Source of the DNA: Curtobacterium caseinilyticum
GTDB lineage: Bacteria; Actinomycetota; Actinomycetes; Actinomycetales; Microbacteriaceae
Assembly: GCF_030363035.1 (NCBI RefSeq)
Contig: NZ_JAUCMN010000007.1
Coordinates: 62,001-126,000, forward strand
Length of the DNA: 64,000 bases
Direction: 5' to 3'
The position numbers were made by a program, and so were the translations under genes. The stretch's first letter is position 1. The number at the start of each line of letters is the position of its first letter. Below, in pieces: positions 1,226 through 35,587 of the stretch. The notes beneath the pieces are model-generated. The model was not told the origin of the DNA. It did not search any database and saw nothing but the letters and a program-made list of their open reading frames with translations.

Positions 1226-1408
1226 ATGCGTTGGGCGGCGATCTCACTAGCGCTGGTGCTCCTGGGCTTGTTTCTGACCGTTGGCGCCGTCTAGCTCATC
1301 GCCCAAAGCAACTCACTCGGCTGGGTCCTCCTTGCGACTGACATAGCACTCGGTTTCGCAAAGGTGCGCGTGCCGGCGGCGCTCGACGGTGTCCCGTCCG
1401 ACCGGTAG
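1226..1408 (+). pseudogene. small two-TM membrane protein interrupted by an in-frame TAG
   Basis: From ATG 1226 (GGAG just upstream) the frame encodes a hydrophobic segment (MRWAAISLALVLLGLFLTV). It meets TAG at 1292-1294, then continues in the same frame with a second hydrophobic segment (LGWVLLATDIALGFA) to a TAG at 1406-1408. Two membrane helices on either side of the stop suggest a small membrane protein broken by an amber mutation. The final stop lies in the first bases of a dispersed repeat element. The 22-residue leader could still be made as a single-TM peptide. Confidence 0.4.
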
Positions 1409-1429
1409 CGGATCGGCTATCGGACAGCC
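1401..1429 (+). repeat. dispersed ~27-bp element, copy 1
   Basis: The copy contains GGTAGCGGATCGGCTATCGG, of the ATCGGAC tail type. Its first bases include the TAG stop of the upstream reading frame. It shares its core with nine other copies between here and 35.1 kb. Confidence 0.75.
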
Positions 1430-1530
1430 TTAGTCAGACCTGAGGACCGCATTCGCTTCTCCTCGAGCGGTAGGTGGCATCCGGCACACTGGGGCCATGG
1501 CTACCGCCCCCACTTGCCCGATGTCGCGGC

Positions 1531-2346
1531 ATGACTGAATCTGACCAGTCTCACGAAAGCTGGCAACAGCGCGTGACGCGTATGGCTGAGACGACAGATC
1601 AATGGTCGATTCGGACGAACGATGCGCCTCCGATCCTGCCGGGAAGCGCGCTTGGAGGGGACGATCACCCTGGCCTGCACGTCTCCGGAATCGCTTGGTA
1701 CGCCATCGTTGTCGCAGTGGAGCATCTCGAGTTCACGTTCTCTGCGATGAGAGCGACGGGTACCTTGTACCCGACCGCGCAGATGACCGCGCTGCGGACT
1801 GCCCTACTGACAGGTTCGCAAGCCGTTTGGGTCCTAGCGCCAACGCTGCGCGCGGAGCGTCGGGCGCACGCAATGCGGCTCCAAATGCAGGACTCACGGG
1901 ATGAGCTCGCGATGGTCCGCGGACTGTCAGCACTCGACGCTACTCAAGCGGCACTTCGAGCCGAGACCGAAGCGAACCTCGAGCAGCGGCAAGTGGATCG
2001 CAAGAACGTCGCCACAAAACTGGCCCTTCCATCTTCCGCTGTCGCCAAACTCAACAACACCGATGTGATCGCCAAGGCCTCCAGCTTTGTGCATCCCGAA
2101 GGCAATCAAACGCTCAACAGCGGTGTCAGCCTTCTCTGGCGCATGGGGAGCGCAGCGGCGCACGGCCAACGGTCGTACGCCGTGACCCGAGCAGGTCGGA
2201 ACGAGCGCAGGACGGACGTCCGCGACACGATCGTCGAGCTACGAGGCGACTTGGCTCGTGACATCGGGCCGTCTGCTGCCGCGGCAGTGTTGACCGTGAG
2301 CGAGGCCTTCCGGTTGTTCGATCTGCGCAATGGCGGCGCCCGGTAG
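1531..2346 (+). CDS. hypothetical protein (271 aa)
   Basis: The start is ATG 1531 (MTESDQSHESWQQRVTRM). An upstream in-frame ATG at 1474 is less likely because its extra 19 residues look non-coding. The protein is soluble and mostly helical. A WYAIVVAVEHLEFTFSAM segment lies near residue 60, and SLLWRMGSAAAHGQRSY lies near residue 215. A Trp-Arg...AAHG pattern of this kind is seen in uncharacterised actinobacterial, possibly HEPN-like, proteins; that is a loose resemblance only. Its stop (CGG TAG) is formed inside copy 2 of the dispersed element, and copy 1 lies upstream, so the gene is bracketed by the repeat. Confidence 0.6.
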   Translation: MTESDQSHESWQQRVTRMAETTDQWSIRTNDAPPILPGSALGGDDHPGLHVSGIAWYAIVVAVEHLEFTFSAMRATGTLYPTAQMTALRTALLTGSQAVWVLAPTLRAERRAHAMRLQMQDSRDELAMVRGLSALDATQAALRAETEANLEQRQVDRKNVATKLALPSSAVAKLNNTDVIAKASSFVHPEGNQTLNSGVSLLWRMGSAAAHGQRSYAVTRAGRNERRTDVRDTIVELRGDLARDIGPSAAAAVLTVSEAFRLFDLRNGGAR

Positions 2347-2366
2347 CCGATCGGGTAGCGGACGGC
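2339..2366 (+). repeat. dispersed ~27-bp element, copy 2 (diverged)
   Basis: The sequence CCCGGTAGCCGATCGGGTAG followed by CGGAC is a variant of the element with two changes in the core. It supplies the TAG stop of the 1531-2346 gene. Confidence 0.6.
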
Positions 2367-2542
2367 TCCCTTGAGGGAGCCGGCCTGGCGGCATGATTGC
2401 GACGACGCATGTGCGTGGCCAGGCGACGACGATTCCAGGGCTTTTCGTATTGACGTCATCGCCTGAACCCGCCGACGACTAGCAGCGCCACTAGCCACAT
2501 CCCGCTCCGGGCCATTGCTGTCCCGACGGACCGGCAGCACTG

Positions 2543-3562
2543 CTAGCCGCGTCGGAGGGTTTCCGAGGGAAGCTCCCCGAACGCGTTGGCATAGTATGCG
2601 GCGAACCGGCCGAGGTGCCCAAACCCCCAGCGGCGAGCGATCTCAGCCACGGTTGTGACGTCGGGTTCGGCAATGACCAGTTGCGCGCGCACATGGTGCA
2701 GCCGGACGGTGCGCAGGAACGACAGTGGACTCTCGCCAGCGTGTCGCTGGAAGTTCGCTTGCAGCCCCCGACTGTTGATCCCGACGGCACGGGCGACATC
2801 AGTCACGGTGATGGGTCGGTGGGCATTAGCGATCATCCACTCCTGCGCCAGCCGCATGGACGCGGGCCCCTCGTGCCGGAGGATGTCGAGTGTGGGGGTG
2901 GCGTCGTAGGCTTCGACGGCAGCTTCCGCAACCAGCATGTTCAGCGTAGATCGCCGGGCGCGATCGGTTGCCGAGTTCAACAGTTCCGGGGATGCGGACC
3001 GGATGACCTGCCGAAGGCGCGCAGCAGCGTCCGGCTTCGCGGTGGTTGTGAACTTCAGTGGTCCGGGGATCATCCCTGCATGCGCGGCTGCGACCGATTC
3101 GAGGAATGTCTTGTCGAAGCGGATGAGGTGCTGCGTTGTGGGGCGCGCCTCGAACTCGAACTCGCGGTCGCTGGGATACATCACCGGCGTTCCCGGCACC
3201 ATTTGGATCGGACTGCGCGCAGCACTGTCGAGGGTCAGTCCGGGGCCGGTCGCCCATGCGAGCATGTAGACGTCTTGCTGGCCGACGGTGCCCCACCTGT
3301 TTGCGGCAACCGACGATGTCCCAACAGCGACGTTCTCGTCGCCGACTGCGCGGAATCGCCACGAGAAGCCGTCAGCGGCGGAACGGCCGACGTGGATGTT
3401 GTCGCTGGAGTAGACGCCCTCGTAGAAGGCGACCGCGTCATCGATGGAGGTGCCGCGGCGGTCCACGTTCACGGGAGACTCATCGTCGGAGGGCATTCTG
3501 CGCTGATCTTTGCACTGACCTCCGACACTCCGCGCACCATAGGGAGTCAGCAGGGCAGTCAT
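2543..3562 (-). CDS. AraC-family transcriptional regulator
   Basis: The 339-residue protein has an N-terminal AraC-type sensing domain (roughly residues 40-220) and a C-terminal double helix-turn-helix. ITVTDVARAVGINSRGLQ and TVAEIARRWGFGHLGRFAAY are the two recognition units, and the order matches the AraC/XylS family. The start could instead be the ATG at 3496 (MPSDDESP); neither has a strong ribosome binding site. The inducer is unknown. It is divergent from the small gene at 3590, and no obvious structural gene is next to it, so the regulated target may lie elsewhere or have been lost. Confidence 0.85.
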   Translation of the reverse strand: MTALLTPYGARSVGGQCKDQRRMPSDDESPVNVDRRGTSIDDAVAFYEGVYSSDNIHVGRSAADGFSWRFRAVGDENVAVGTSSVAANRWGTVGQQDVYMLAWATGPGLTLDSAARSPIQMVPGTPVMYPSDREFEFEARPTTQHLIRFDKTFLESVAAAHAGMIPGPLKFTTTAKPDAAARLRQVIRSASPELLNSATDRARRSTLNMLVAEAAVEAYDATPTLDILRHEGPASMRLAQEWMIANAHRPITVTDVARAVGINSRGLQANFQRHAGESPLSFLRTVRLHHVRAQLVIAEPDVTTVAEIARRWGFGHLGRFAAYYANAFGELPSETLRRG

Positions 3563-3964: not shown

Positions 3965-3994
3965 CCCTCGCGAGATCGACCAACCTTGGAAGGG

Positions 3995-4022
3995 TCCGCA
4001 AGCCTATCGGCTATCGAGACGC
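3995..4022 (+). repeat. dispersed ~27-bp element, copy 3
   Basis: It contains the exact core ATCGGCTATCGAGACGC at 4006-4022. Read on the - strand, this copy provides the last codons (Ala-Ser-Arg) and the TAG stop of the TetR gene that ends at 4011. Confidence 0.8.
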
Positions 4023-4610
4023 GATGTGTGGTCGTTGGAGGGGGTCGGTGACGGAGATGGTCGCAGCGAGGTTGAGATCGCTTGCGTTGCCGCTGACGCC
4101 TGCGGATGCGAGAAGGGTCGCACCGAAGACCGTGCTCCAGAATGTCCGCGCGTCCCTGTCGGCGCCGGCCACGCTCGTCCAGCCGTGCTCCCTGATCACG
4201 CGCTCCAGGTAGCGCTCTGACTGTCGGAAGAGGACAGCAAGCAAGAGCCTGACGCGCTCGCGCTGTGCCGCGTCGCCGCCGTTGTTGGCCAGTGCCTGCA
4301 CGACAGTGACCGTTGACGGCATCGCGAGCGCGGTCCGGGCAAGGACTTCGCGGAACTGCTCAGCACCCACGGCCCGGCGTCCGGCCGCTTGTAGTCGGGT
4401 GGTATCGCGAAGGAACAGCGCGAAAGCGGCGTCGAGCACCAGCCGGTCCTTCGACCCGTAGTGGTGGGTGATCTGGTTCGGGTACACCCCGGCCGCTCGG
4501 GCGATCTCGCTGACCGTGAGGTTGCGCGGTCCGGCCACACTCAAGAGCCCTGCCGTCGCCGCAAGGATGCGCGCGCGCGTCGCTGCGCCTCGTGGTGTGC
4601 CAGAGTCCAT
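4011..4610 (-). CDS. TetR-family transcriptional regulator
   Basis: The 199-residue protein has a clear TetR N-terminal DNA-binding domain: RARILAATAGLLSVAGPRNL, then VSEIARAAGVYPNQITHHYG, then SKDRLVLDAAF. A helical ligand-binding domain follows. ATG 4610 was chosen (GGGGGTGG upstream) over the in-frame ATG at 4649, because the longer start would place the operator inside the gene. It is divergent from the ketoacyl synthase at 4677, with two inverted-repeat operators between them, so it most likely represses itself and that gene. Confidence 0.88.
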   Translation of the reverse strand: MDSGTPRGAATRARILAATAGLLSVAGPRNLTVSEIARAAGVYPNQITHHYGSKDRLVLDAAFALFLRDTTRLQAAGRRAVGAEQFREVLARTALAMPSTVTVVQALANNGGDAAQRERVRLLLAVLFRQSERYLERVIREHGWTSVAGADRDARTFWSTVFGATLLASAGVSGNASDLNLAATISVTDPLQRPHIASR

Positions 4611-4629
4611 CACGTTTGCCACCCCCAAA

Positions 4630-4666
4630 TTGTACGGGATACAACTCAACTTGTTTGGCGTACAAG
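4630..4666. promoter_or_regulatory. twin palindromic operators for the TetR regulator
   Basis: Two matching inverted repeats sit between the divergent genes. The first is TTGTA-N5-TACAA at 4630-4644. The second is CTTGT-N7-ACAAG at 4650-4666, which is TTGTT-N5-TACAA on the same register. Their centres are 21 bp apart, two helical turns, as expected for two dimers on one DNA face. The second site runs into the AAGAAGGAG ribosome binding site of the ketoacyl synthase. Confidence 0.7.
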
Positions 4667-4676
4667 AAGGAGCATC

Positions 4677-5897
4677 ATGGACATTTCAGTCACGGGCTAC
4701 GGCGCGGTTTCACCGTTCGGGCACGGCGTCAGGCCGCTCTGGGACGCGCTCATCGCTGGTCAGTCCGGCGTTCGCCAGCTCGACCGCCAGGGCGCGCTTT
4801 GGGAACAGGTACCGATCCGGGTCGGGGCACCCGCGGCGCTCGACGCCGACGGAGCGCTCAGCCGAGTCCGGGCGAACCGGTTAGATCGCAGTCAGCAGCT
4901 CGCGCTCGTCGCCGCAGCAGAGGCATGGTCAGATGCCGGATCACCGGACGTCGACAGCGATCGACTCGCAGTGGTCGTTGGGACCGGTATCGGCGGTATC
5001 GAGACGCTTCTCGATGCCCACGACGTCCTTGGTGCCAGTGGTGCCCGGCGGGTGTCGCCGCGCACCGTGCCGATGCTGATGGCGAATGCTGCTGCGGCGC
5101 AGATCAGCATTGAGTACGGCGCTCGCGCTGGTGCGTACACGACGGTTTCGGCGTGCGCGTCCGGGGCTGAGGCGATCGCTGTCGCTGCGCGGTTGATCGT
5201 GACTGGTGAGGCGGACGTTGTGATCGCTGGGGGAACCGAGGCCGCGGTGACTCCGGTGACGATGGCGTCCTTCGCGCAGTCGCAGGCACTCGCCAAGGCG
5301 GGTGGCAACGACCCGGAGACCCTTTCTCGCCCATTCGACGTCGATCGTCGCGGGTTCGTCCTCGGCGAGGGAGCCGGCTTGGTCGTCCTCGAACGCGCCG
5401 AACACACCGCCGCACGTCGTCAGCGCTCTCATGGAACGCTCGCCGGCTGGGGCATCACGTCCGACGCGCACCACATCACCGCACCCCTGGAAGGCGGCGG
5501 CGAGCAGGAACGCGCGATGACCGCGGCGATCCGAATGGCAGGTCTCACCGGCACTGACGTCGATCACGTCAATGCCCACGCAACAGGCACCCTGGTTGGA
5601 GACATCGGAGAAGCTGCCGCGGTCAGCCGAGCCGTCGGACGGCACGCGCTCGTGACGGCGCCGAAGGGGGCTATCGGGCACATGTTCGGTGCAGCCGGTG
5701 CAGTCGAGGCGATCCTGACCCTCCGCGCGCTGGAGACGGGGACGGTTCCGCCAACGAGGAACCTTGAACAGCTCGACCCCGCAGTCGACCTCGACGTCGT
5801 CGCCGGCGCCGCCCGGCGTGCTCCGCTGCGGGCAGCGCTCAACAACTCGTTCGGATTCGGTGGACAAAACGCATCCCTGGTGTTCACCACTGCCTGA
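4677..5897 (+). CDS. beta-ketoacyl-[ACP] synthase family protein (FabF-like)
   Basis: This thiolase-fold condensing enzyme joins an acyl thioester to malonyl-ACP. At 406 residues it is full length for the FabF/KAS II group. The catalytic Cys is in TTVSACASGAEAI, the first His in VNAHATGTLVGD, and the Lys/His pair in PKGAIGHMFGAAGAVEA. The C-terminal signature NNSFGFGGQNASLVF is present. ATG 4677 follows AAGAAGGAG. No acyl carrier protein, ketoreductase or other fatty-acid gene is nearby, so it is a stand-alone, TetR-controlled synthase whose product cannot be predicted from context. Confidence 0.88.
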   Translation: MDISVTGYGAVSPFGHGVRPLWDALIAGQSGVRQLDRQGALWEQVPIRVGAPAALDADGALSRVRANRLDRSQQLALVAAAEAWSDAGSPDVDSDRLAVVVGTGIGGIETLLDAHDVLGASGARRVSPRTVPMLMANAAAAQISIEYGARAGAYTTVSACASGAEAIAVAARLIVTGEADVVIAGGTEAAVTPVTMASFAQSQALAKAGGNDPETLSRPFDVDRRGFVLGEGAGLVVLERAEHTAARRQRSHGTLAGWGITSDAHHITAPLEGGGEQERAMTAAIRMAGLTGTDVDHVNAHATGTLVGDIGEAAAVSRAVGRHALVTAPKGAIGHMFGAAGAVEAILTLRALETGTVPPTRNLEQLDPAVDLDVVAGAARRAPLRAALNNSFGFGGQNASLVFTTA

Positions 5898-5909
5898 GCG
5901 GCTGAGACG

Positions 5910-5937
5910 TCCGGTCGACGATCGGCTATCGAGACGC
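5910..5937 (+). repeat. dispersed ~27-bp element, copy 4
   Basis: It contains the exact core ATCGGCTATCGAGACGC at 5921-5937, preceded by TCCGGTCGACG. It lies between the convergent ends of the ketoacyl synthase and the next - strand gene. Confidence 0.8.
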
Positions 5938-5981
5938 TGTTGCCGTCTTCGACTCCATCGATGCCACCGTCCTCTGTACCG

Positions 5982-7854: not shown

Positions 7855-7982
7855 GAGGACTCCAAACACGCAGGATCTGCGCGCCATGAGAGCCGATCGG
7901 CACGGGGCGTTCCGACGCTTCACCCCGACAAGAGTCAGACTACAACCCCGGGGAGCGATAGTCGACCGGACGTGAGGAACGC

Positions 7983-8010
7983 ACCGGCAGGTGATCAACT
8001 ACCGAGACGC
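7983..8010 (+). repeat. dispersed ~27-bp element, copy 5
   Basis: ACCGGCAGGTGATCAACTAC followed by CGAGACGC is a diverged core with an intact CGAGACGC tail. It lies 26 bases before a truncated hydrolase gene. Confidence 0.65.
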
Positions 8011-8036
8011 TTGGTGGTCGATGTCATGGTGACGCC

Positions 8037-8146: not shown

Positions 8147-8171
8147 TAGACAGCTAGCCACGTCGCCGCGC

Positions 8172-8197
8172 CCGTCTGCGGATCGGCTATCGAGACA
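8172..8197 (+). repeat. dispersed ~27-bp element, copy 6
   Basis: GGATCGGCTATCGAGACA at 8180-8197 matches the core except for the final bases. It separates the hydrolase remnant from the XRE regulator. Confidence 0.75.
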
Positions 8198-8202
8198 CAG
8201 GG

Positions 8203-14238: not shown

Positions 14239-14256
14239 TGCTTTTCCTCGTCATCG

Positions 14257-21121: not shown

Positions 21122-21150
21122 TCCGGTTGACCGATCGGCTATCGGACACC
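21122..21150 (+). repeat. dispersed ~27-bp element, copy 7
   Basis: TCCGGTTGACCGATCGGCTA followed by TCGGACACC is an intact core of the ATCGGAC tail type. It lies between the catabolic operon and the FetB-like gene. Confidence 0.8.
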
Positions 21151-21235
21151 GGCGGGATGGTCGGTCGGACTCTTCGTGCCGCAGGGGCCGCGGAGCCAGA
21201 GGCCTACAGTTCAGACGTGAGTGTTTGGAGCACGC

Positions 21236-21982
21236 GTGGCTGATCAGCTGACCCACGCGCTGCTCGGCGTGGTGGTGCTCCTCGGGGCCGCGTCTGCGGT
21301 GCTGGTCCTGGCGCGGGCGGAAGCGCCGTGGGCGCCAGCCGTCGCGATCGTGCGTGGGGCGGCACAGCTGGCGGTGATCAGCCTGGTGCTGAGCGGGATC
21401 ATCCGGTCGCCGCTGCTGATCGGGGTGGCACTTCTGGTGATGTTCTCCGTCGCCGTCCTGACTGCGGCGCGTCGACTCGGCAGCGTGTCCTCGATGGTGA
21501 TCCCGGTGGCGGTATCCATGGGGGTCGGTGTTCTGGTGACCGGCAGTGTCGTGTTCGGGATGGGCGCGGTGGAGTTCAGCCCCCGGTACGCGCTCGCCAT
21601 CGGCGGGATCGTGATCGGGAACGCGATGACGATCGCGACCATCAGCGGCCAGCGTTTCCGGGAGCTCGTGGCCGATCAGTGGGACGAGGTCGAGGGGTGG
21701 CTCGCGCTTGGAGCGTCACCTCGGCGTGCGACGGAACGGCTGGTGCGTCGGGCGGTCAGTGCGGCGCTCGTGCCGACGGTGGATCAGACCAAGACGACCG
21801 GGCTGGTGACGTTGCCCGGCGCGTTCGTTGGAGCGGTGTTCGGCGGGTTGTCGCCGCTGGACGCCGGGCGCTTCCAGATCGTGGTGCTCGCCGCGATCAT
21901 GGCGGCTGGTGCGTGCACCGCGGTGTGTCTGACGCAGTGGTTGGCACCAATCGCGACCCGGCCCGTCACGTCAGCAAACTGA
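21236..21982 (+). CDS. FetB-like (UPF0014/YbbM) ABC transporter permease
   Basis: The 248-residue protein has about seven hydrophobic helices and the family signature TTGLVTLPGAFVGAVFGG with LDAGRFQIVVLAAIMAA, as in E. coli FetB/YbbM, the permease of an iron exporter. The soluble loop DQWDEVEGWLALGASPRRAT with its amphipathic coupling helix is also typical. GTG 21236 was chosen, preceded by GGAG. The partner ATPase (FetA) is not encoded next to it here, so the complex may be completed from elsewhere or the protein may act differently. Confidence 0.8.
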   Translation: MADQLTHALLGVVVLLGAASAVLVLARAEAPWAPAVAIVRGAAQLAVISLVLSGIIRSPLLIGVALLVMFSVAVLTAARRLGSVSSMVIPVAVSMGVGVLVTGSVVFGMGAVEFSPRYALAIGGIVIGNAMTIATISGQRFRELVADQWDEVEGWLALGASPRRATERLVRRAVSAALVPTVDQTKTTGLVTLPGAFVGAVFGGLSPLDAGRFQIVVLAAIMAAGACTAVCLTQWLAPIATRPVTSAN

Positions 21983-22070
21983 CGCGGACCGGGGCGAGCC
22001 GGGGGATGGGGCTGAGGCTTGGTCGTTCCTTGGTGTTCTACATCGAGGGTTGCCTCGGAGGTGGTTCCCC

Positions 22071-22190
22071 GTGGGCGTGTGGATCGTGTGCGCAGTGGCC
22101 GTCGCGCTGCTGGTGGTGGTTGGTTCGGTCGGAGCTGCGCTGCTCGCAGTGGCTACGGAAGCTGAGCGGGAGGGCCTGTTCGACGACTGA
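22071..22190 (+). CDS. 39-residue single-TM membrane peptide
   Basis: GTG 22071 is preceded by GGAGG with about 9 bases of spacing. The product starts MGVWIVCAVAVALLVVVGSV and is one hydrophobic helix followed by a charged tail (ATEAEREGLFDD). It sits between FetB and the response regulator gene, which ends 10 bases away on the other strand. No family is known to me. The good ribosome binding site and helix-plus-tail pattern make translation plausible. Confidence 0.5.
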   Translation: MGVWIVCAVAVALLVVVGSVGAALLAVATEAEREGLFDD

Positions 22191-22199
22191 TCGGGGATC

Positions 22200-22859
22200 T
22201 CAGGCGGGTGTTCCCAGCCGGTAGCCGACACCGCGGATGGTGCTGATCAGGTCGCGGTCCGTCTTCCGGCGGATGTAGTGGACGTACGTGTCGACCGTGC
22301 CGAGCTGCTCACCGTTGTCGAACACCGCGGACAGCAGGTGCTGCCGGGTGAACGCCCGCGATGGCTCGCTGGTCAGCAGTCGCAGCAGGGCGGTCTCCTT
22401 CTCGGTCAACATCACCCGTCCGGTGTAGGGGGAGGTGATGCTGTTGTCCTCCGGGTAGAACACCCACCCGCCGATCTCGACGCTGCTGCCGACCCCGGTG
22501 TAGTCGCGGGTGAGTGCCCGGAGCCGGGCGGTGAGCTCGTCGAAGTTGAACGGTTTGACGAGGTAGTCGTTCGCGCCGGCGTCCAACCCGGAGACACGGT
22601 CGTGGACCATGCCGAGGGCGGTGAGCATCAGCACGGGGGTGCTGATCCGTCGCTGCCGGAGTGCCGCAACGACTTCGGTGCCGTCGATTCCCGGGAGTCG
22701 ACGGTCGATGACCATCACGTCGAAGTACTCCTCGGCGGCAGCCTCGAGCGCGGACTCTCCATCCGTGCGGAGTGTCACGATCCACTGTTCACCGAGCTCG
22801 TCCGCGACGAGCGGACCGAGCCGGGGGTCGTCTTCGACGAGGAGCAGTCGGGGCATCAT
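22200..22859 (-). CDS. OmpR-type response regulator
   Basis: The 219-residue protein has a receiver domain (RLLLVEDDPRLGPLVADEL) with the phospho-acceptor Asp in YFDVMVIDRRLPGIDG and Lys in ANDYLVKPFNFDELTARLRA. A winged-helix effector follows (LTEKETALLRLLTSEPSRAF to VHYIRRKTD). The start ATG overlaps the stop of the histidine kinase gene by one base (TGATG), so the two are translationally coupled. 11-bp direct repeats upstream of the kinase gene are plausible binding sites. Confidence 0.93.
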   Translation of the reverse strand: MMPRLLLVEDDPRLGPLVADELGEQWIVTLRTDGESALEAAAEEYFDVMVIDRRLPGIDGTEVVAALRQRRISTPVLMLTALGMVHDRVSGLDAGANDYLVKPFNFDELTARLRALTRDYTGVGSSVEIGGWVFYPEDNSITSPYTGRVMLTEKETALLRLLTSEPSRAFTRQHLLSAVFDNGEQLGTVDTYVHYIRRKTDRDLISTIRGVGYRLGTPA

Positions 22860-23932
22860 CAGTGGGCCTTCCGGTCGTGTTCCGATGTGCTGGTCGCTGC
22901 GATCGGGAGGTGGAGCGCGAAGACCGTGCCGCTGCTGTCCGTGTGTTCGACGACTGCATCGCCGCCTGCTCTGAGGGCGATGTCGCGGACCAGCGCCAAC
23001 CCGATGCCGTACCCGGTGCGGGTAGTCGTCGTCGCGGTGGCGTCGACGGGGGTGCCGTGGGCAAAGCGGTCGAACACCCGTGCCGGCTCGATGCCGACGA
23101 CGCCGGGACCGTTGTCCGCGACGCGGATCGTCACACGAGCCCTGTCGATTACCGCGGTGACACGCACCTGTCCGCCGGTTCGTGTGTGGCCGATGGCGTT
23201 GTCGGTCAGCGCGACCAGGCAGCGGCGCAGCTGCGTCTCGGACACCCCCACGCGCGCGTCGATCGGATCGATGTCGAGGTGCACGTTCCGGTCGGCCGCG
23301 AGCACGCTCATGTCGCGGTGCACCACGTCCATCGCCGCCCGGAGGTCGGCGGCACCGTTCGGTTCGCTGGATCCGGTAGCTGCGTCGAGGAGGTCGTTGA
23401 CGATGTCGATCAGGACCTGCGTGTCACCGCGCAGCTCGTCGACGACCGGCCGCCGCCGGTCGTCCGCCGGGGTCATGCGCTGCAGACGTTGTACGCGGGC
23501 GTGGAGCACGGTGAGCGGGGTCCGGAGTTCGTGGCTCGCGTCGGCGACGAAGGTGCGCTGCATCCGGGCAGCTTCGGCGATCGGCCGCACCGCGCGGCGG
23601 GCGATCAGCCATGCGGCGACACCGGCGAGGACGATCGCGAGACCGCCGACACCGATCACCGCGATGCTGAGGTCGATGGTGTCGAGGTAGATGTGGATGT
23701 CGGTCGGCCCGGGGCGCTCGTGGAGTTGGTTCGGTGTCAGCTGCCACAGCACGTACACCACGACGAGGCCAATGATCGCGATGACCAGCGCGGCGGACAC
23801 GACCGCGACCCGGAGCGCGATGCCGATCACCGACCCGCGGAACGCCAACCGGTCCGGATCGTTCTCCGAAGCAGACCGGCTGGACCACCGGGTCACCGTG
23901 TCCGCGATCGATGACCGCCACCCAGCCGACAT
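22859..23932 (-). CDS. sensor histidine kinase
   Basis: The 357-residue kinase has two membrane helices (around residues 34-58 and 88-112) that bound a short 30-residue extracellular loop. A linker is followed by the H-box FVADASHELRTPLTVL, an N-box LVALTDNAIGHT, the G1 box VADNGPGV and a late G box TGYGIGLALVRDIAL. The short loop implies membrane or intramembrane sensing rather than binding of a large ligand. ATG 23932 follows GGAAGGGG. It is divergent from the COG4705-DedA-COG4705 operon, its likely target. Confidence 0.92.
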   Translation of the reverse strand: MSAGWRSSIADTVTRWSSRSASENDPDRLAFRGSVIGIALRVAVVSAALVIAIIGLVVVYVLWQLTPNQLHERPGPTDIHIYLDTIDLSIAVIGVGGLAIVLAGVAAWLIARRAVRPIAEAARMQRTFVADASHELRTPLTVLHARVQRLQRMTPADDRRRPVVDELRGDTQVLIDIVNDLLDAATGSSEPNGAADLRAAMDVVHRDMSVLAADRNVHLDIDPIDARVGVSETQLRRCLVALTDNAIGHTRTGGQVRVTAVIDRARVTIRVADNGPGVVGIEPARVFDRFAHGTPVDATATTTTRTGYGIGLALVRDIALRAGGDAVVEHTDSSGTVFALHLPIAATSTSEHDRKAH

Positions 23933-24051
23933 GTGACCCCTTCCGGACCAGCGGCACCGGAACGCGAGGGGGAAGCGTTCCGGTGTCGCCGTGTTGGCTC
24001 GATCCTGCCTCACTCAGAGCAGCACCGGCAGGCCCGATCCTCACCTCCGCC

Positions 24052-24104
24052 AGCCAAGGAACAGCCAAGAAAGCCCGACCACGGGGCCGGGCACGATTCT
24101 TGGC
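24052..24104. promoter_or_regulatory. 11-bp direct repeats, candidate response-regulator site
   Basis: AGCCAAGGAAC (24052-24062) and AGCCAAGAAAG (24063-24073) are back-to-back direct repeats with the 11-bp step usual for OmpR/PhoB-type regulators. TTCTTGGC at 24097-24104 is an inverted copy of GCCAAGAA. The site lies between the kinase gene and the membrane operon at 24189. Confidence 0.55.
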
Positions 24105-24188
24105 GGAGTCTTGCACACCGCTTCCTACCGTCGGAGCATCGCCGGTCCCGCACCCCGCGGCACCGCCCGTCACGACGAGGAGAACGCC

Positions 24189-24989
24189 ATGTCCCACTCG
24201 CCCGCCGCGCCGCTGCCGACCCGGGCACGCTCGAACAAGGTGCCCGACCCGACCGCGTCGTTCTGGATCATCAAGGTCCTCGCGACGACCGTCGGTGAGA
24301 CGGCGGCGGATCTCCTCAGCGACACCGTCGGCCTCGGGCTGCCGTTGACGACGCTGATCATGACGGTCGCGCTGGCCGTGTTCCTGGTCCTGCAGTTCCG
24401 GTCCCGCGCCTACCGGCCGCCGCTGTACTGGATGACCGTGGTCCTGATCAGCATCGTGGGCACCTGCGTCACCGACAACCTCACAGACGGGCTCGGCGTC
24501 CCTCTCGCTGTCAGCACGACCGTGTTCGGTGTCGCGCTGATCGCCGTGTTCGCGATCTGGTTCCGCGTCGAGGGAACCCTCTCGATCCACAGCATCGACA
24601 CGGTCCGGCGGGAAGCGTTCTACTGGCTCGCGATCCTGTTCACCTTCGCCCTCGGGACTGCCGCGGGCGACCTGATCGCCGAGCAGACCGGACTCGGGTA
24701 CTTCCCGTCGCTGCTGCTCTTCGCCGGAGCGATCGCCCTCACCGCAGCCATCTGGTTCATCGGCCGCCGCGGCCCGGTCCTCTGCTTCTGGATCGCGTAC
24801 ATCCTCACCCGACCGCTCGGCGCATCCACCGGAGACCTGCTGTCCGCGTCGACGAAGGACGGCGGACTCGGGATCGGGACGATCACCACGAGCGTCGTGT
24901 TCCTCGTCATCATCGCCGCGATCAGCACCTTCCTCGTGATCCGTCTCCGCCGCGACGAACCCGCCCAGCGCAGCCACCTGACCGCCTGA
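24189..24989 (+). CDS. COG4705-type integral membrane protein
   Basis: The 266-residue protein has about eight hydrophobic helices arranged as four repeats. Each repeat begins with an aromatic-Trp and continues to G-x4-D: FWIIKVLATTVGETAAD, YWMTVVLISIVGTCVTD, FYWLAILFTFALGTAAGD and FWIAYILTRPLGASTGD. Four intramembrane Asp residues in a four-fold repeat suggest an ion or proton pathway; that is inference. ATG 24189 follows GAGGAG. A paralogue is encoded two genes downstream with a DedA protein between, and all three are close-spaced. Confidence 0.75.
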   Translation: MSHSPAAPLPTRARSNKVPDPTASFWIIKVLATTVGETAADLLSDTVGLGLPLTTLIMTVALAVFLVLQFRSRAYRPPLYWMTVVLISIVGTCVTDNLTDGLGVPLAVSTTVFGVALIAVFAIWFRVEGTLSIHSIDTVRREAFYWLAILFTFALGTAAGDLIAEQTGLGYFPSLLLFAGAIALTAAIWFIGRRGPVLCFWIAYILTRPLGASTGDLLSASTKDGGLGIGTITTSVVFLVIIAAISTFLVIRLRRDEPAQRSHLTA

Positions 24990-25055
24990 CGCTTGAACTC
25001 TGTCGGCCGCCCCACTCGTTGGACGGTCGCCAAGATTTGTCCTGGAAGGACCGCC

Positions 25056-25730
25056 TTGCTCTCCACCGTTCCGCTCGCAGTGAGCCTGTTCGACGCCGCA
25101 TCCGTGCTGCACGCGTTCGGTCCGTACGTCCTCGCCGGCATCGCACTGCTGATCTTCATCGAGTCCGGCGTGCTGTTCCCCTTCCTGCCCGGCGACTCGC
25201 TCCTGGTCACTGCTGCAATCATCAGCAGCACGCTCGGCGTGACGCCGTGGCAGGTCGCTCTCGTGGCATCGATCGCCGCCATCGCCGGTGACCAGGTCGG
25301 CTACTGGATCGGGAAACGCTACGGCCGCCGACTGTTCAAGGACGACGCCCGCATCCTCACCACCGCCCGCCTCAACGAAGCGGAAGCGTTCTTCACCAAG
25401 TGGGGCGGCCTCAGCCTCGTCCTTGGCCGGTTCGTCCCGATCGTCCGGACCTACGTGCCGCTCGCCGCCGGCACCGCGCAGATGCACTACCGACGGTTCC
25501 TGCTGTTCAACCTCATCGGCGCGATCTCCTGGGCCTGCGGCCTGACCGCCGTCGGCGTGCTCCTGGGCGGAATCCCGCTGATCGCCCACAACATCGACGC
25601 GCTGATGATCGTCATCATCCTCGTCTCGATCCTCCCGATCGTGATCGGCGCGCTCCGCCGCCGCCACGTCGCGCGGAAGAACCGCAACACCTCGTCCGCA
25701 CCGTCGCAGCCGACCGGAGACGGCAGGTGA
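25056..25730 (+). CDS. DedA-family (SNARE-associated) membrane protein
   Basis: The 224-residue DedA protein has ESGVLFPFLPGDSLLVTAAI near the N-terminus, GDQVGYWIGKRYGRRLF in the middle and RFVPIVRTYVPLAAGTAQM, which carries the conserved Arg residues and the re-entrant region. DedA proteins include undecaprenyl-phosphate flippases and affect pH and antimicrobial tolerance. TTG 25056 was chosen because GGAAGGA ends 5 bases before it and the upstream extension looks non-coding. The stop overlaps the next GTG start (GTGA). Confidence 0.87.
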   Translation: MLSTVPLAVSLFDAASVLHAFGPYVLAGIALLIFIESGVLFPFLPGDSLLVTAAIISSTLGVTPWQVALVASIAAIAGDQVGYWIGKRYGRRLFKDDARILTTARLNEAEAFFTKWGGLSLVLGRFVPIVRTYVPLAAGTAQMHYRRFLLFNLIGAISWACGLTAVGVLLGGIPLIAHNIDALMIVIILVSILPIVIGALRRRHVARKNRNTSSAPSQPTGDGR

Positions 25731-26491
25731 GCTCGCGGAACCGGGTGCCGGAGCCCACGGCGTCGTTCTGGCTGATCAAGGTCCTCACGACCGGGATGGG
25801 CGAAGCGCTGTCAGACTTCCTGGTCACCCGGTTCGACCCCGCCCCGACCGTCCTCGTCACCGCGGCCCTCTTCCTCGTGGTCCTCGTCGTGCAACTCCGG
25901 GCAGACCGGTACCGACCCTGGCTCTACTGGGGGACGGTGTCGATGGTGGGAGTGTTCGGCACGATGGTCGCCGACGTCACACACGTCGCCCTCGGTGTGC
26001 CGTACTTAGTGTCGACCCCGGTGTTCCTCGCAGCGCTCGTCGCCGTGTTCGTTCTCTGGCGCCGCACCGAAGGCACCGTCGACGTGCACACCATCACGAC
26101 CACCCGTCGGCAACTGTTCTACTGGGCCGCCGTGATCACGACCTTCGCGATGGGGACCGCCGCCGGCGACCTCGCCGCCAGCACCTTGCACCTCGGCTAC
26201 CTCAGCGGCGGCCTCGTGTTCGTAGCAGCGATGATCCTCGTCGTTCTCGCGCGCGCGACGTCGATCATCGGCGCGGTGACGGCGTTCTGGACCGCGTACG
26301 TCCTCACCCGTCCCATCGGAGCATCGTTCGCCGACTTCGTCGCCCTTCCCAACGCGCGCGGCGGTCTCGCCGTGGGAACCGGGCTGGTCAGCGCGATCCT
26401 CCTCATCGTGATCGCGTTCGCGGTGGCGTGGACGAGGCACCTTCGTCCCCTCAGCTCGTCTGCTGCCGGAGCAGCACGAGGCGTCCGGTAA
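25727..26491 (+). CDS. COG4705-type integral membrane protein, second paralogue
   Basis: The 254-residue protein shows the same four-fold architecture as the 24189 gene: FWLIKVLTTGMGEALSD, YWGTVSMVGVFGTMVAD, FYWAAVITTFAMGTAAGD and FWTAYVLTRPIGASFAD. All four Asp positions are kept. GTG 25727 overlaps the DedA stop, so it is coupled. Having two diverged paralogues in one operon suggests a heteromeric complex. The stop codon (CGG TAA) falls inside copy 8 of the dispersed element. Confidence 0.75.
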   Translation: MSSRNRVPEPTASFWLIKVLTTGMGEALSDFLVTRFDPAPTVLVTAALFLVVLVVQLRADRYRPWLYWGTVSMVGVFGTMVADVTHVALGVPYLVSTPVFLAALVAVFVLWRRTEGTVDVHTITTTRRQLFYWAAVITTFAMGTAAGDLAASTLHLGYLSGGLVFVAAMILVVLARATSIIGAVTAFWTAYVLTRPIGASFADFVALPNARGGLAVGTGLVSAILLIVIAFAVAWTRHLRPLSSSAAGAARGVR

Positions 26492-26510
26492 GCCATCGGC
26501 TATCGAGACG
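26484..26510 (+). repeat. dispersed ~27-bp element, copy 8
   Basis: TCCGGTAAGCCATCGGCTAT followed by CGAGACG matches the core. It supplies the TAA stop of the second COG4705 gene. Confidence 0.8.
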
Positions 26511-26544
26511 ACTGCATCCCTTCCTGACTCGATACCGTGCAGGG

Positions 26545-31151: not shown

Positions 31152-31316
31152 GTCGACACAGAAGCGGCACCGGCGGAAGACGCGCTGCCGATTGACCTGT
31201 GGATCGCCGCGTGCTCGTGTCGCCTGAAAGTTTTAGCACCGCTGTGCAACGATGCTCGGGAAGTGAAGGACGGTCAGCACCGACTCGGTCCGTCCACCGG
31301 ACCGAGGAGCTCAGCG

Positions 31317-32969
31317 ATGCGACTATCGCGAATCACCATCAAAAACTATTCGCGCATCGCCGACCTCGACCTGCACGTCGGCAGCCATCTTGTCATCGTG
31401 GGAGCAAACGACGTCGGGAAGACATCCGTGCTTCGAGCGATCGATCTCGCTCTGGGATCCGCCGCGCAGCTCTACCAGTCACTGTCGGTGCAAGACCTGG
31501 CCGCGGCGGATGAACCACTTACCGTCGCCGTGCAGTTCGTCGATTTCTCGGAGACGGAACGAGCGGCCTTCTACCGTGAGATCGACAGCGACCCACTCAC
31601 AAAGACGGAGTCGCTCGATGTCCGACTTGAAGTCGTCGTTGACCCGGACGATACGGACTCCGTGCTGATCTCGCGGTGGAGCCCAGGGCGGGGTGAGGTC
31701 CGTCCACTGACCAGAGAGCAGATCTCGACTCTCGGCTGGAGGTATCTCCCGGCCGTCCGACAAGCGTCCGCAGCGCAGCTCGAAAGCCCGACCGGTGCAG
31801 TCAAGACGCTGCTGCGGGCACTCGAACCGGACCTGGGCGATGAGCGAGTGGCGCTCGGCGAGATCCTCAACTCTTTCAACTCCACGCTGGCGGGGAGCGC
31901 CCCTCTCTCCGAACTCCTGTCCGGCGTCGCCAACCGACTTTCAGACGCGATGCCGCGAACAATCACACCCGAGGAGCTCGCCGTCCGAAGCAGCGCCGAC
32001 CCCACCGCCTCGGTTCTCGAAGGGGTTTCGTTGTACACCCGGTCCGACGATGGATACGTTCCGATTTCTGAGCAGTCCGACGGTATCCGTCAACTCATCG
32101 CCATGACGCTGTTCGATCTCGCCGAGGGCGCCGCGAACGTCATTGCGATCGATGAGCCGGAGATTCACCTGCACCCGTCGAGCCAGCGGACCGTCGCCGA
32201 CCTACTCGCGTCGGATCGAAACCAAAAGATCCTCGTGACGCACTCGCCGTACATCGTTCAGAAGTTTGATCCAAGTGCAGTCGTCGCCGTTGATCCGAAC
32301 GGTGTCTGCCACCAGCTCGATCCCGACCGTGTCACGCTCGAAGAGCGGGTGCAGGCGCACTGGTGGTCACCGCGCATGATCGAAGCGCTCACCGCCCGGA
32401 TTGTCATCGCGGTCGAAGGTGTCGCCGACCGGCTCATCGTCGAGGCTGCGGCACGAACACTCGGAATCTCTCTCGACCGCATCGGGGCGTCCGTGTTCGA
32501 ACTTGGCGGCGCCGAAAACTTCCCCGCCGTATACAAGCTGCTCGGACCTGCCGGATTCGGGATCGATATGCTCGGTCTTGTCGACTATGCCGAGAAGGGC
32601 AAATGGATCGGCGCTGTGGGCGGACGAGAACGCGACGTCGTTGGGCGCACCGTCTTCGTCTCGAAGGCCGACCTCGAGGACGAATACTGCCGAGCTCTCG
32701 GTGTCCAAGTGATGGCAACTCGTCTGACGAATGCTGGCGTCGCAAAGGACTTCGATGCACTCCGCGCCGCGTGCGCCACCGAAGACATCAGCTCGATGAC
32801 GCCAGAGGCCATCGCGAAGTACTGCCGATCCAGCGGCGGCCAGCCACGAGTCAACCGGAAAGTCCCATCGGCGTTGGCCGTGAGCAAGGGACTCACGATT
32901 GCGGAGGTCCAGGCCATGGAAAGCGTCCATGCGCTGCTCGTCGAAATCGAACGACGGACGGATTCGTGA
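31317..32969 (+). CDS. gajA: Gabija-like GajA: OLD-family ATPase/TOPRIM nuclease
   Basis: The 550-residue protein has an N-terminal AAA/ABC-type ATPase with Walker A VIVGANDVGKTSVLRAI, Walker B VIAIDEPEIHLHPSS and the H-loop LVTHSPYIVQKF. A C-terminal TOPRIM domain follows with the Glu motif IVIAVEGVADRLIVEAA, the Asp motif LGLVDYAEKGKW, and KADLEDEYCRALG. In GajA this domain nicks DNA and is restrained by nucleotides. The second Asp of the DxD pair is Ala here (DYAE). ATG 31317 follows GAGGAG. It overlaps the helicase gene by 4 bases (GTGA). Confidence 0.75.
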   Translation: MRLSRITIKNYSRIADLDLHVGSHLVIVGANDVGKTSVLRAIDLALGSAAQLYQSLSVQDLAAADEPLTVAVQFVDFSETERAAFYREIDSDPLTKTESLDVRLEVVVDPDDTDSVLISRWSPGRGEVRPLTREQISTLGWRYLPAVRQASAAQLESPTGAVKTLLRALEPDLGDERVALGEILNSFNSTLAGSAPLSELLSGVANRLSDAMPRTITPEELAVRSSADPTASVLEGVSLYTRSDDGYVPISEQSDGIRQLIAMTLFDLAEGAANVIAIDEPEIHLHPSSQRTVADLLASDRNQKILVTHSPYIVQKFDPSAVVAVDPNGVCHQLDPDRVTLEERVQAHWWSPRMIEALTARIVIAVEGVADRLIVEAAARTLGISLDRIGASVFELGGAENFPAVYKLLGPAGFGIDMLGLVDYAEKGKWIGAVGGRERDVVGRTVFVSKADLEDEYCRALGVQVMATRLTNAGVAKDFDALRAACATEDISSMTPEAIAKYCRSSGGQPRVNRKVPSALAVSKGLTIAEVQAMESVHALLVEIERRTDS

Positions 32970-34648
32970 CCACTCGTCGACAGGCGTTCGACGAAGCCGT
33001 CGAGACAGACCAGCGGAACCTATTGGTGATCGCCGCACCAGGCTGCGGCAAGACCGAGCTGCTCGCTCATCGGGCATTGCAGCAAATCAGTCTGCTCGCA
33101 GAAGGTCGCCAGATTCTGGCTCTCACCTTCTCAAACAAGGCGAAGACGAACCTCAACGGCCGGCTGAACGACGTCCTCGGCGTCGAACGAAAACGGCGTT
33201 TCGTGGTCGTCCACAACTTCCATGGTCACAGCGCCGAGATCATCCGATGCCACGGTCGCACCCTCGGGATCCCCGTGGACTTCGAGATACCCACCGACCG
33301 CACTCAACCGGACATCGTTGATGCCTACCTTGAGGGACTCACCGAGCGGGAAGCGGACGGCGTGCGCGCGCTCATCAATAGCCAGCTCGGCGAAGCGAAA
33401 CGCGGGCCCTACAGCGACGATGAGGTGCTCGCCCGACTACGTGACACGGGCGATCAACGTAGCGTCCTCGTCGAAGAACACCGACAGCGCACCGGGGTGT
33501 TGTTCTACGACGATCTCCTCCGTCACGGCCAGCGGCTGCTGCGAGTACCAGAGATCGCTCGCCTGTACCGAACCCATTTTCAATCGGTGATGGTGGACGA
33601 GTTCCAGGACCTCTCCCCACAGCAGCTGGACATCGTACTGCGTTCATCAGATCGCAGCCGCACGGTCGTTGGCGACCCGCTCCAGGGCATATACAGCTGG
33701 ACGGGCGCTCGCCCTGCTGAGAACGAGCGTCTTCTCCGACGGATCAGCGGTGACCCGCTCTCGCTCGGCACGTCCTACCGATCGTCGCCAAACGTTCTTC
33801 GGATCCTCGGCGCGGTTTCGGTCGAGCTTGGCGGCGCTCCGCTCGCAGCGGCAGACCCTGAGAACTGGTTCGAAGGGGGAACTGCTGCTGGCTTCTTCTT
33901 CAAGACAGGAGCGGATGAAGCCAATTTCGTGCGAACGACGGCAGCGGAGATCCACGAACGAGCGCCGGAAGCGACAATCGGCGTGATCTGTCGTTCAGGC
34001 TGGCGGCGGAAACCCGTGGACAGCGCGTTCACGAGGTCGGGTACGCCCGCCAGGCGCTGGGACCTTGCCACCGATGACCCAGAGGTCATCTCTCGGATCC
34101 ACGACGCTGTGGACCGTCTCGGCGCCACCCCGACCCTCGACCAACTGCGCACACACGTTCTGACCAATGCCGAGTCGGCGGACTCAGAGACGTTCGCCGC
34201 ACTCGTCGAAGCCCTTGACGCGCTCGACGAGATGGTCGCCGAATCCGGGTCTGTGATGGCCGCTGTCTCCCGCCTACGAGCTGCAGAGGACGTCGCAGAA
34301 GGGATCACACCGGGGATCCACTTGTTGAATGCACACGTTGGCAAAGGGCAGCAGTTCGATTGGGTCTTCATTCCCGGTTTTGATGAGGGCAATATGCCGA
34401 GTTTCCTTGCGAAGAGCGCGAGCGAGCGCGCCGAAGAACTGCGCGTGCTGCTGGTCGTCATCTCACGAGCCCGCCATGGCGTCGTCATCACGGGAGCAGC
34501 GTCGCTTATCTCGAAGAAAGGCAACCCCTACAGCGTCGCCCCCAGCCGGTGGAGACCTCTTGTTCGCGGCTCCATGACGCATTCGACCAGAGCCGAACTC
34601 GTTTCCCATATCAGGCGTATGTACTCAGACCACCAATCCTCGTCGTAG
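32966..34648 (+). CDS. gajB: Gabija-like GajB: UvrD-family SF1 helicase
   Basis: The 560-residue SF1A helicase has VIAAPGCGKTELLAHRAL (motif I), ILALTFSNKAKTNL (Ia), VMVDEFQDLSPQQLDIVL (II), RTVVGDPLQGIYSWTGA (III), LGTSYRSSPNVLRILG (IV), LLNAHVGKGQQFDWVFIPG (V) and VVISRARHGVVITGA (VI). All core helicase motifs are present, so the enzyme looks intact. GTG 32966 overlaps the OLD gene stop. An OLD nuclease followed by a UvrD helicase is the Gabija anti-phage arrangement and is also called class 2 OLD. Confidence 0.78.
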   Translation: MTTRRQAFDEAVETDQRNLLVIAAPGCGKTELLAHRALQQISLLAEGRQILALTFSNKAKTNLNGRLNDVLGVERKRRFVVVHNFHGHSAEIIRCHGRTLGIPVDFEIPTDRTQPDIVDAYLEGLTEREADGVRALINSQLGEAKRGPYSDDEVLARLRDTGDQRSVLVEEHRQRTGVLFYDDLLRHGQRLLRVPEIARLYRTHFQSVMVDEFQDLSPQQLDIVLRSSDRSRTVVGDPLQGIYSWTGARPAENERLLRRISGDPLSLGTSYRSSPNVLRILGAVSVELGGAPLAAADPENWFEGGTAAGFFFKTGADEANFVRTTAAEIHERAPEATIGVICRSGWRRKPVDSAFTRSGTPARRWDLATDDPEVISRIHDAVDRLGATPTLDQLRTHVLTNAESADSETFAALVEALDALDEMVAESGSVMAAVSRLRAAEDVAEGITPGIHLLNAHVGKGQQFDWVFIPGFDEGNMPSFLAKSASERAEELRVLLVVISRARHGVVITGAASLISKKGNPYSVAPSRWRPLVRGSMTHSTRAELVSHIRRMYSDHQSSS

Positions 34649-34722
34649 AGTCTTAGCTCAAGGGCGCAAAAACGCTCGGCACGAGCAATGAGTCCAACAC
34701 TCCTCGGACTCGGAACCTGCGC

Positions 34723-34748
34723 TCGATAGCCGGTCGGGCTATCGGGAC
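34723..34748 (+). repeat. dispersed ~27-bp element, copy 9 (palindromic variant)
   Basis: GATAGCCGGTCGGGCTATC at 34725-34743 is an inverted repeat (GATAGCC/GGCTATC) followed by GGGAC. It suggests that the ancestral element is palindromic around GATC. It lies between gajB and a hydrolase fragment. Confidence 0.65.
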
Positions 34749-34770
34749 GGGCTGCTCATGAGCCTGCTCG

Positions 34771-35064
34771 GTGGTCGCGCAAGTCCTTGGTTCTGGTCGT
34801 CCGCTGATTAACCTGCGTGGGTTTGGTGTCGACCTCCGGATCATGCTGCCGCTGGCGGACGTGGTGCAGGATCTGCCGCGGCGGCTGGTGCTCCTCGACC
34901 TTCCGTGGGTCGAAGCTGCCGGGGCGACCGCGACCACGAAGAGCGCGGTCGACGTGGCCGACGAGGTACTCGCCGACGTCTACGACCACCTCGGCGATGA
35001 GCCCTTCGTCGTCATCGGGAACTCCTTCGGCGGCGTGATCGCCCGACACGGCTCTGCCCGGTAG
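34771..35064 (+). pseudogene. truncated alpha/beta-hydrolase gene (central fragment)
   Basis: From GTG 34771 the frame encodes LINLRGFGVDLRIMLPLADV and ends soon after the nucleophile elbow FVVIGNSFGGVIARHG. The acid and His parts of the triad and the C-terminal half are missing. The stop (CGG TAG) is formed inside copy 10 of the dispersed element. Copy 9 lies 22 bases upstream, so the fragment is bracketed by the repeat. It is presumably non-functional. Confidence 0.65.
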
Positions 35065-35081
35065 AGGATCAGCTACCAGAC
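35057..35081 (+). repeat. dispersed ~27-bp element, copy 10 (diverged)
   Basis: CCCGGTAGAGGATCAGCTAC followed by CAGAC is a diverged core. It supplies the stop codon of the truncated hydrolase. No later copy was seen towards 64 kb. Confidence 0.6.
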
Positions 35082-35587
35082 TTAGCTGCGCTGTGGCCGT
35101 TGCCGCGACCAGGACCACTCCACCGCTGAGAAATCCCTACTCGCGCCGACTCCCGGCAACCTTGGTCTCACATAGGTGGTCATCGATCCTTCGCAGTGGA
35201 GGTGCGTAATGTATTCGGTCGCGTCGCGCGGGCCAACCTGGCGGCAAGTTGTACGCGAAGGGGACAGGTCATAAGCGCAGCGACACGGCTTTGAGGCGCC
35301 ACTGTCAGGCAATCTGTCGCTGAGCTTCCGAACGACAGGATCCGCGGCATGGAGACACGAACTGTCGGCGACCGACAGCTGTTGGTCAGACGCCACTTCG
35401 CCGGCACTGACGAGCGCGGAACTCCGCATGACGAGGAGATGCGATCCGCCGCCCGGCAGCTGCGCTCAGGCCGATCTAGTCCGCTCCCTTGCCAACCTGG
35501 AACTCAGGGTCAGACAAACTTGGAGCGAAACGGACAGTTTGGGGCACTCCCAGACACTTTCGTTCCTGTCTTCACAACGACAGAACG
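35082..35587. other. 506-bp gap with no convincing gene
   Basis: Short open frames exist, including one after GGAGG near 35197-35203, but they contain stops or lack a recognisable composition. I see no terminator hairpin for dnaB and no repeat. It forms the border between the accessory region and the conserved origin region. Confidence 0.5.

Follow-up and report, generated by a model that had tools for sequence, protein, structure and literature searches.

What separates the gene blocks in the first 35 kb of a stretch of 64,000 nucleotides from Curtobacterium caseinilyticum (contig NZ_JAUCMN010000007.1, positions 62,001 to 126,000; hereafter the window), where a short sequence recurs ten times? 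The earlier note on this DNA, made from its letters, had likened the layout to cassette junctions or recombination scars. Comparison with related genomes supports that reading, since gene-block homology between relatives starts and stops at the element, and the elements are, as far as such comparisons can tell, recombination junctions. We propose that they are probably double-stranded attachment sites of an integron-like gene-cassette system, the likely recombinase of which is a phage-type integrase of 363 amino acids (aa) encoded beside some of the arrays in relatives. The gene blocks look as if they had been cut and pasted between plant-associated actinobacteria at the repeats. Genomes, loci and contigs are referred to below by our own numbers (G, L and C).

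The elements and the cassettes between them

All ten copies were recovered at the positions given for them, each with E ≤ 0.003 in a sequence-only model (R1) that was partly built from these same copies. The 17-base core, with up to three mismatches, matches six places in the window against a mean of 0.58 in 100 shuffles, none of which reached six; five of these places are copies already claimed and one (18499) is not. A position weight matrix (PWM), iterated on its own matches and with a false rate at 16 bits of 0.1 per 64 kb of simulated sequence, gave 17–39 bits to nine of the ten copies. The remaining one, at 34723 (element 9), reached just 8.1 bits against 22.5 bits in R1, because it carries a one-base insertion that R1 tolerates; the top-scoring unlisted place in the window had 8.2 bits. 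A weak eleventh copy suspected at 31076 did not rise above background (5.7 bits, unlisted by R1), and the conserved part of the window, from 35.1 to 64 kb, was without an R1 listing at E ≤ 1, just as the earlier note had stated. Other parts of its description needed adjustment. The element is of ~30 bp rather than ~27 bp; the + strand, claimed for all copies, holds for nine, copy 2 (2339) being nearly symmetric, with a better PWM fit when reversed and a slight preference for the + strand in R1; and seven of the ten elements are intergenic, as all were said to be, with elements 3, 8 and 10 overlapping the 3′ end of an open reading frame (ORF) by 11–14 bp, genes and cassette ORFs alike having been called by a simple codon-usage caller.

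Together with 14 more copies from the same genome, the ten align as an imperfect palindrome centred on GATC, the right half being better conserved than the left. The consensus is GTCCGGTAGCCGA-TCGGCTATCGGGACGC (from 234 matches scoring 16 bits or more over 1.217 Mb of loci), also given as GTCCGGTAGCCGA-TCGGCTATCGRGAC, and the right arm shows a common one-base difference in length (CGGAC or CGRGAC). No consensus hairpin structure was found in these 24 copies. Across 322 elements the two arms were about as complementary as shuffled ones (excess no more than 0.04, z no more than 2.2) and arm covariation was at most very weak (z above 0 at 10 of 13 offsets, the largest 2.2); the site therefore appears not to be kept as a hairpin, and its halves seem to reassort, in which case weak covariation within an element would be expected. 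A hairpin or RNA reading was rejected on these grounds, the covarying stem of a repetitive extragenic palindromic (REP) or terminator hairpin being absent.

The proposal is carried by the behaviour of homology at the elements. In an all-against-all blastn of the loci, 149 of 724 homology ends fell within 25 bp of an element centre, against 8–19 in five shifted controls (high-scoring pair ends of each locus pair are counted from both sides, and some loci, L012 and L091, overlap). A homology end touched 80 of 234 elements, compared with 13 of 162 ORF 3′ ends and 2 of 229 ORF 5′ ends, both taken inside arrays and away from elements, and 2–3 of 188–200 random points. At the 55 junctions examined for an identity switch (38 distinct query positions; 50 if the overlapping locus L012 is left out), the cassette side showed identities of mostly 0.76–0.96 from +1 outward, well over background beyond the element; the outer side was at background or close to it from −6 outward, with a slight rise at −4 and −5. 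Identity switches at the element centre, and each cassette therefore carries half a site at either end. Units with elements at all four ends are shared by seven distinct locus pairs (0.34–2.3 kb), including a 2.36-kb unit of G007 that is 99% identical at 3.67 and 0.72 Mb. Moreover, a filled/empty pair was found (L011 versus L165), in which 3.0 kb is present in one locus and absent from the other, the remaining element being composed of the left half of the first element and the right half of the last. Comparison between genomes thus shows the sites, the cassette boundaries and half-site exchange, with gain and loss of cassettes by recombination at the sites, as in integrons.

The cassettes are short: 265 intervals of 150–3000 bp (224 non-redundant) have a median of 667 bp, and an ORF was called in 158 of the 224. 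In 73 single-ORF cassettes the median distance is 18 bp from stop codon to element centre and 142 bp from element to start codon; in 29 of them the stop codon lies 4–6 bp from the centre, i.e., within the element, a closeness due in part to the TAG or TGA within the element itself. A Pfam scan of 135 cassette ORFs (from the first 140 of 176 ORFs of at least 80 aa) matched most often GNAT acetyltransferases (17) and then alpha/beta hydrolases (7), with no integrase family among the best 25 of 138 families. By inspection, without counts, elements and genes occur in mixed orientations in other arrays. Element pairs just 45–52 bp apart (L185:686-768 and 2095-2180; L196:440-520; L197:2949-3033 and 3694-3779) are possibly empty cassettes or platform-type sites.

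A candidate integrase and its attI-like site

The earlier note had seen no integrase here, and indeed the genome of the window is without the 363-aa integrase; its two PF00589 proteins are Xer-like, both slightly under the XerC and XerD cut-offs and one passing a broader Xer model, and a search for serine recombinases gave no PF00239 match. In a PF00589 search of 30 genus genomes, closeness to R1 matches singled out three related integrases. The 363-aa protein, which has the domains PF22022, PF14659 and PF00589 and in whose sequence the catalytic motifs R, K, HxxR, H and Y were recognized by eye, was then compared with all 66 genus genomes; at 82% identity or more it has eight matching genes, spread over seven genomes and including a partial one. 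Five of the eight (G041, G008, G018, G062 and G054) have elements on the 3′ side of the integrase within 1.5 kb, against none of 23 loci with more distantly related tyrosine recombinases. For G057 and both copies of G061 no element of at least 14 bits was found within 1.5 kb, one G061 copy having a match of 12.6 bits on the 5′ side of the gene, at a distance of 1.1 kb. Judged from its sequence and surroundings, this phage-type tyrosine integrase is our favoured candidate for the recombinase, a choice we hold with some reserve.

A conserved stretch with two arm-like inverted motifs separates int from the first element, and an attI-like site lies ~175–245 bp 3′ of int. The first element has a conserved left (outer) half and a variable right half in four of six cases (G008, G041, G054 and G018), conservation of the left half not being seen in G062 and G061. 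The G018 gene is split by an insertion with a transposase-like ORF, so named by eye. The integrase region is common over ~8 kb or more to G061 and G062, and in part to G008, G041 and G054; in G008, G041, G054 and G062 its border with the conserved chromosome is marked by a tRNA-Ser(CGA) gene. In the genome of the window the C13 array begins ~190 bp from a tRNA-Ser(CGA) gene, without an integrase (L002:9689-9967). Two further features were seen at such loci. Three 88-aa ORFs at an exact spacing of 580 bp, probably a tandem duplication, lie between the array and an insertion-split integrase (L016:9655-11078), and a second branch of the integrase (82–83% identical; L073:9762-10874 and L070:9862-10959) is located in another shared block, of 6.8 kb, with no element 3′.

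Distribution of the elements and the blocks of the window

A search of the whole genome and of relatives revealed further clusters in the genome of the window (C7:57.3 and 59.1 kb, C12:56.6-59.4 kb, C13:50.0-56.0 kb, C9:143-145 kb and a few singles), the C7 cluster consisting of the window and the 3–5 kb before it. Element matches also lie near the ends of contigs C7 and C11, and the C13 and C9 contig ends have the same 153-bp sequence from an element on (98.7%), so that repeated cassettes probably broke the assembly. All 24 Curtobacterium-group genomes scanned initially, this one included, have matches (7–39 each at E ≤ 0.1), and some arrays are dense, with 26 elements of at least 13 bits in 30 kb of G064 and 15 in 36 kb of G084. 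Across the Microbacteriaceae, matches at E ≤ 1e-4 were found in 9 of 249 genomes and 4 of 85 genera, using filters that lose weak matches; these scans count both strands, so that symmetric sites are counted twice. In other families 9 of 15 genomes gave 1–4 weak matches. The exact palindrome pattern, sought across the species collection, occurs in 46 stretches: 37 from Curtobacterium, 2 from Frondihabitans, one each from Frigoribacterium, Leifsonia virtsii and an actinomycete metagenome-assembled genome, and 4 from elsewhere. Of the 37 Curtobacterium stretches 34 have several elements, as do both Frondihabitans stretches (4 and 6), Frigoribacterium (5) and the metagenome-assembled genome (2); Leifsonia virtsii (near the stretch end), Micromonospora, Paenibacillus and two Mycolicibacterium have one each. 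The last four were taken as chance matches, as were two single ones in viral contigs without further elements.

Within the window, the expectation that block boundaries in relatives coincide with the elements was borne out for four of the ten, with centres at 1412, 21134, 26495 and 34735; the other six are taken up below. The block at 1-1425 is common to L172 (G074; 93.5%) and ends at element 1, where each of the two genomes has an element. G065, G021, G063 and G043 share the 5.4-kb block between elements 7 and 8 at 86%, starting exactly at the centre of element 7; the right end of the block falls at element 8 in G062 and G061 (93–94%), both of which have an element there. Between elements 9 and 10, ~313 of 334 bp match an 859-bp cassette in C12 of the same genome, starting in element 9; this 334-bp cassette, truncated at its far end just outside element 10, has relatives in G047, G042, G046, G012 and G020 and a weaker match in G016 (75%), without an element there.

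The features of the window are collected in Table 1. DNA similar to the beta-ketoacyl synthase gene (about 72–78% identity) was found, among the matches listed, in many of the 66 genomes. A complete-looking Gabija-type GajA/GajB pair occupies 31263-34648, in the block just before element 9, and part of a sugar-metabolism-like operon (15908-20869) shows ~72% identity with plasmid records from Herbiconiux and Rhodococcus. In its conserved half the window has matches to dnaB, ssb and trxB, the trxB DNA being 91% identical to that of Curtobacterium pusillum; a different array lies at the same place beside dnaB in G007 (L006).

Table 1. Elements and selected genes of the window, in order of position
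Feature	Position	Strand	Score or basis
Element 1	1398..1430, centre 1412/1413	+	PWM 35.4
Possible cassette ORF, 290 aa, without Pfam match, ending in element 2	1474..2346	+	ORF not picked by the codon-usage caller
Element 2, nearly symmetric	2333..2368		R1 25.1 bits on +, 23.1 on −; PWM 29.3 on −
Element 3	3992..4024	+	PWM 31.1; exact core
Beta-ketoacyl synthase cassette gene, ending just ahead of element 4	4461..5897	+
Element 4	5907..5939	+	PWM 39.1; exact core
Element 5	7980..8012	+	PWM 17.1
Element 6	8168..8200	+	PWM 27.2
Element 7	21120..21152	+	PWM 25.7
5.4-kb block: UPF0014, two-component system, two DUF347, VTT domain	21134..26495		Breaks at elements 7 and 8
Element 8	26481..26513	+	PWM 36.8
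GajA, Gabija-type defence	31263..32969	+	PADLOC GajA 2e-155; Pfam
GajB ORF, Gabija-type	32363..34648	+	PADLOC GajB 9.4e-137; helicase homology from residue 206 (~32978)
Element 9, one-base insertion near centre	34717..34753	+	R1 22.5 bits, PWM 8.1
Truncated cassette, 334 bp	34735..35068		Match to C12 cassette
Element 10, final copy ahead of conserved dnaB region	35054..35086	+	PWM 21.5
dnaB, edge of the conserved chromosome next to the array	35588..36952	−

Mechanism, rival explanations and known systems

In the mechanism that we propose, strand exchange by a recombinase would take place between two ~30-bp palindromic sites, at their centres or close to them. A circular cassette bearing a single complete site would insert at a site of the array or of the platform and end up between two hybrid sites, each made of two halves; the reverse reaction would excise a cassette, or several together. 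The palindromic core would let cassettes sit in either orientation, which fits the mixed gene orientation in the arrays. The recombinase would be the 363-aa integrase, carried within the larger shared region at a tRNA-Ser(CGA) hot spot, with its 3′ end facing the attI-like site, the outer half of which would stay conserved and the inner half change with the first cassette. Since the integrase is absent from the genome of the window, the arrays there, including the one beside dnaB, would be integrase-less remnants or be served by an enzyme from outside. The circular intermediate, the integrase as the acting enzyme and current activity are what we infer from these comparisons.

Several observations weigh against this mechanism or against parts of it. 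Three of the five adjacent integrases were found through their adjacency, so that the independent figure is two of five. The integrase clade is confined to 7 of 66 Curtobacterium-group genomes and is present in none of eight element-bearing genomes tested, six of which have no match at E ≤ 1e-15 (G129 has a homologue of 49% and G010 one of 31%); G007, with its unit 99% identical at two loci, has a best integrase homologue of 36%. The integrase, being part of a larger region, might merely use the arrays as its own integration target. At the left end of the 21134 block G065, G021, G063 and G043 hold just a right half-element, as though a non-canonical site had received the block. Elements 2–6 showed no exact break at the centre in the genomes compared, and neither did element 10 in a relative; several genomes match only from a point 18–30 bp off the centre of elements 5 and 6, at the outer edge, and these relatives are without an element there or have one 41–48 bp away. 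The sugar operon at 10174-20883 is 90% identical to G063 and ends without elements, on which ground the 13-kb interval was rejected as a single cassette. Finally, 16 of 17 indel differences between loci, which were not chosen for synteny, lie away from elements, and one lies at elements.

The main rival to the integrase as the enzyme is the host XerC/XerD pair, because G007, which lacks the integrase clade, shows recent movement. Here XerC/XerD would recombine the elements, as in the dif modules of Acinetobacter plasmids, and the integrase would only integrate into the arrays. We regard this as unlikely, even though the genome of the window has arrays and yet encodes no tyrosine or serine recombinase candidates by PF00589 and PF00239 other than its two XerC/XerD-like proteins, and even though the arm of the element (CCGATAG/CTATCGG) has CCGATA in common with the XerC-side arm of the dif site of the genus. 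This chromosomal dif (L119-L132) reads ATAATGCATATTATGTCAA, or a close variant, in 15 of 15 sampled genomes, with the flanks seen in seven loci, most of them GCGCCGATAATGCATATTATGTCAACT. The element is without the XerD arm (TTATGTCAA) and dif scores −19 bits by the element PWM, and the element was rejected as a dif/XerCD site for these reasons. In addition, the attI-like platform adjoins another integrase, and 240 of the 249 family genomes gave no element match at E ≤ 1e-4 with the filters mentioned, whereas XerCD is to be expected in nearly all Microbacteriaceae. In the dif (pdif) modules genes likewise lie between short two-armed tyrosine-recombinase sites and are thought to be mobile as modules; those are XerC/XerD sites, and the order of XerC arm, 6-bp spacer and XerD arm is not found in the present element. 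Going by its site sequence, then, this appears not to be a dif-module system.

Phage-type integrative elements offer another explanation, in which the elements would be only an attB-like integration hot spot and the cassettes decayed tandem insertions that have lost their integrases. The location of the integrase within a shared region of ~8 kb or more agrees with this, as does its position, since an attP directly 3′ of int is known from actinomycete integrative elements. A report on PAISt, an island of Streptomyces turgidiscabies, describes an actinobacterial tyrosine recombinase at the island end, with excision in modules at palindromic repeats (PMC4057263); there, however, the palindrome is of 8 bp (TTCATGAA) and what moves is a large genomic island, not an array of sub-kilobase cassettes. 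The shortness of the cassettes, the predominance of acetyltransferases with no integrase among the best-represented families, and the fact that the unit which genomes share often comprises one interval only, flanked by element halves, make the hot-spot explanation quite improbable. Hardly credible at all, in our judgement, is that the elements are regulatory or structural repeats (operators, terminators or REP-like hairpins) placed at gene 3′ ends in accessory DNA. They are palindromes and often directly follow stop codons, as such repeats would; the lack of a hairpin in the 24 copies, the near-shuffled arm complementarity, the mixed orientations of elements and genes in other arrays, the homology switch at the element centre and the absence of listed copies from 29 kb of conserved DNA in the window all argue otherwise.

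The cassette system proposed here most resembles integrons (IntI/attI/attC; see PMC9024848), including sedentary superintegrons and CALIN (clusters of attC sites lacking integron integrases), which likewise consist of arrays of short cassettes with a recombination site near the ORF 3′ end. In both, many arrays are without an integrase; an integrase beside a platform site with one conserved half would be a further likeness if the attI-like site is where cassettes enter. The enzyme is probably a different one: the 363-aa integrase is not an IntI, with 56.6 bits for TIGR02249 against a cut-off of 265 and 34.8 bits for PRK15417 against 435. The sites differ too. Whereas attC sites are sequence-variable folded hairpins with conserved structure and R boxes GTTRRRY, the elements, judged without an attC covariance model, are ~30-bp palindromes of conserved sequence with little or no arm covariation and a consensus without GTTRRRY. 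Furthermore, exchange here takes place at or near the palindrome centre, genes occur in both orientations and the 3′ end of the integrase faces the array. The system is thus integron-like in its working, but we do not class it as an integron, because the two defining features tested, IntI and attC, fail.

No description of such arrays in Curtobacterium, Frondihabitans or Microbacteriaceae was found in the titles and abstract openings of the open-licence papers listed. Of two papers on integrons of plant-associated bacteria, one has Curtobacterium in a reference title only (PMC12444791) and the other makes no mention of it (PMC11089894), by a look-up of the term. A broader view, to which we give about even chances, is that plant-associated Microbacteriaceae hold an independently evolved analogue of the integron, in which a phage-type integrase, acting from its platform or in trans after brief visits of a mobile region, builds and shuffles arrays of gene cassettes through double-stranded palindromic half-sites at several chromosomal places. 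If so, the analogue would fill in Actinobacteria the role that IntI integrons have in Proteobacteria, and cassette arrays, with a different class of enzyme and different sites, would have evolved more than once; searches based on IntI and attC would seem to overlook such systems. A simple palindromic double-stranded site would lend itself to studying how gene capture starts, and the system could account for part of the accessory gene turnover in Curtobacterium and its relatives.

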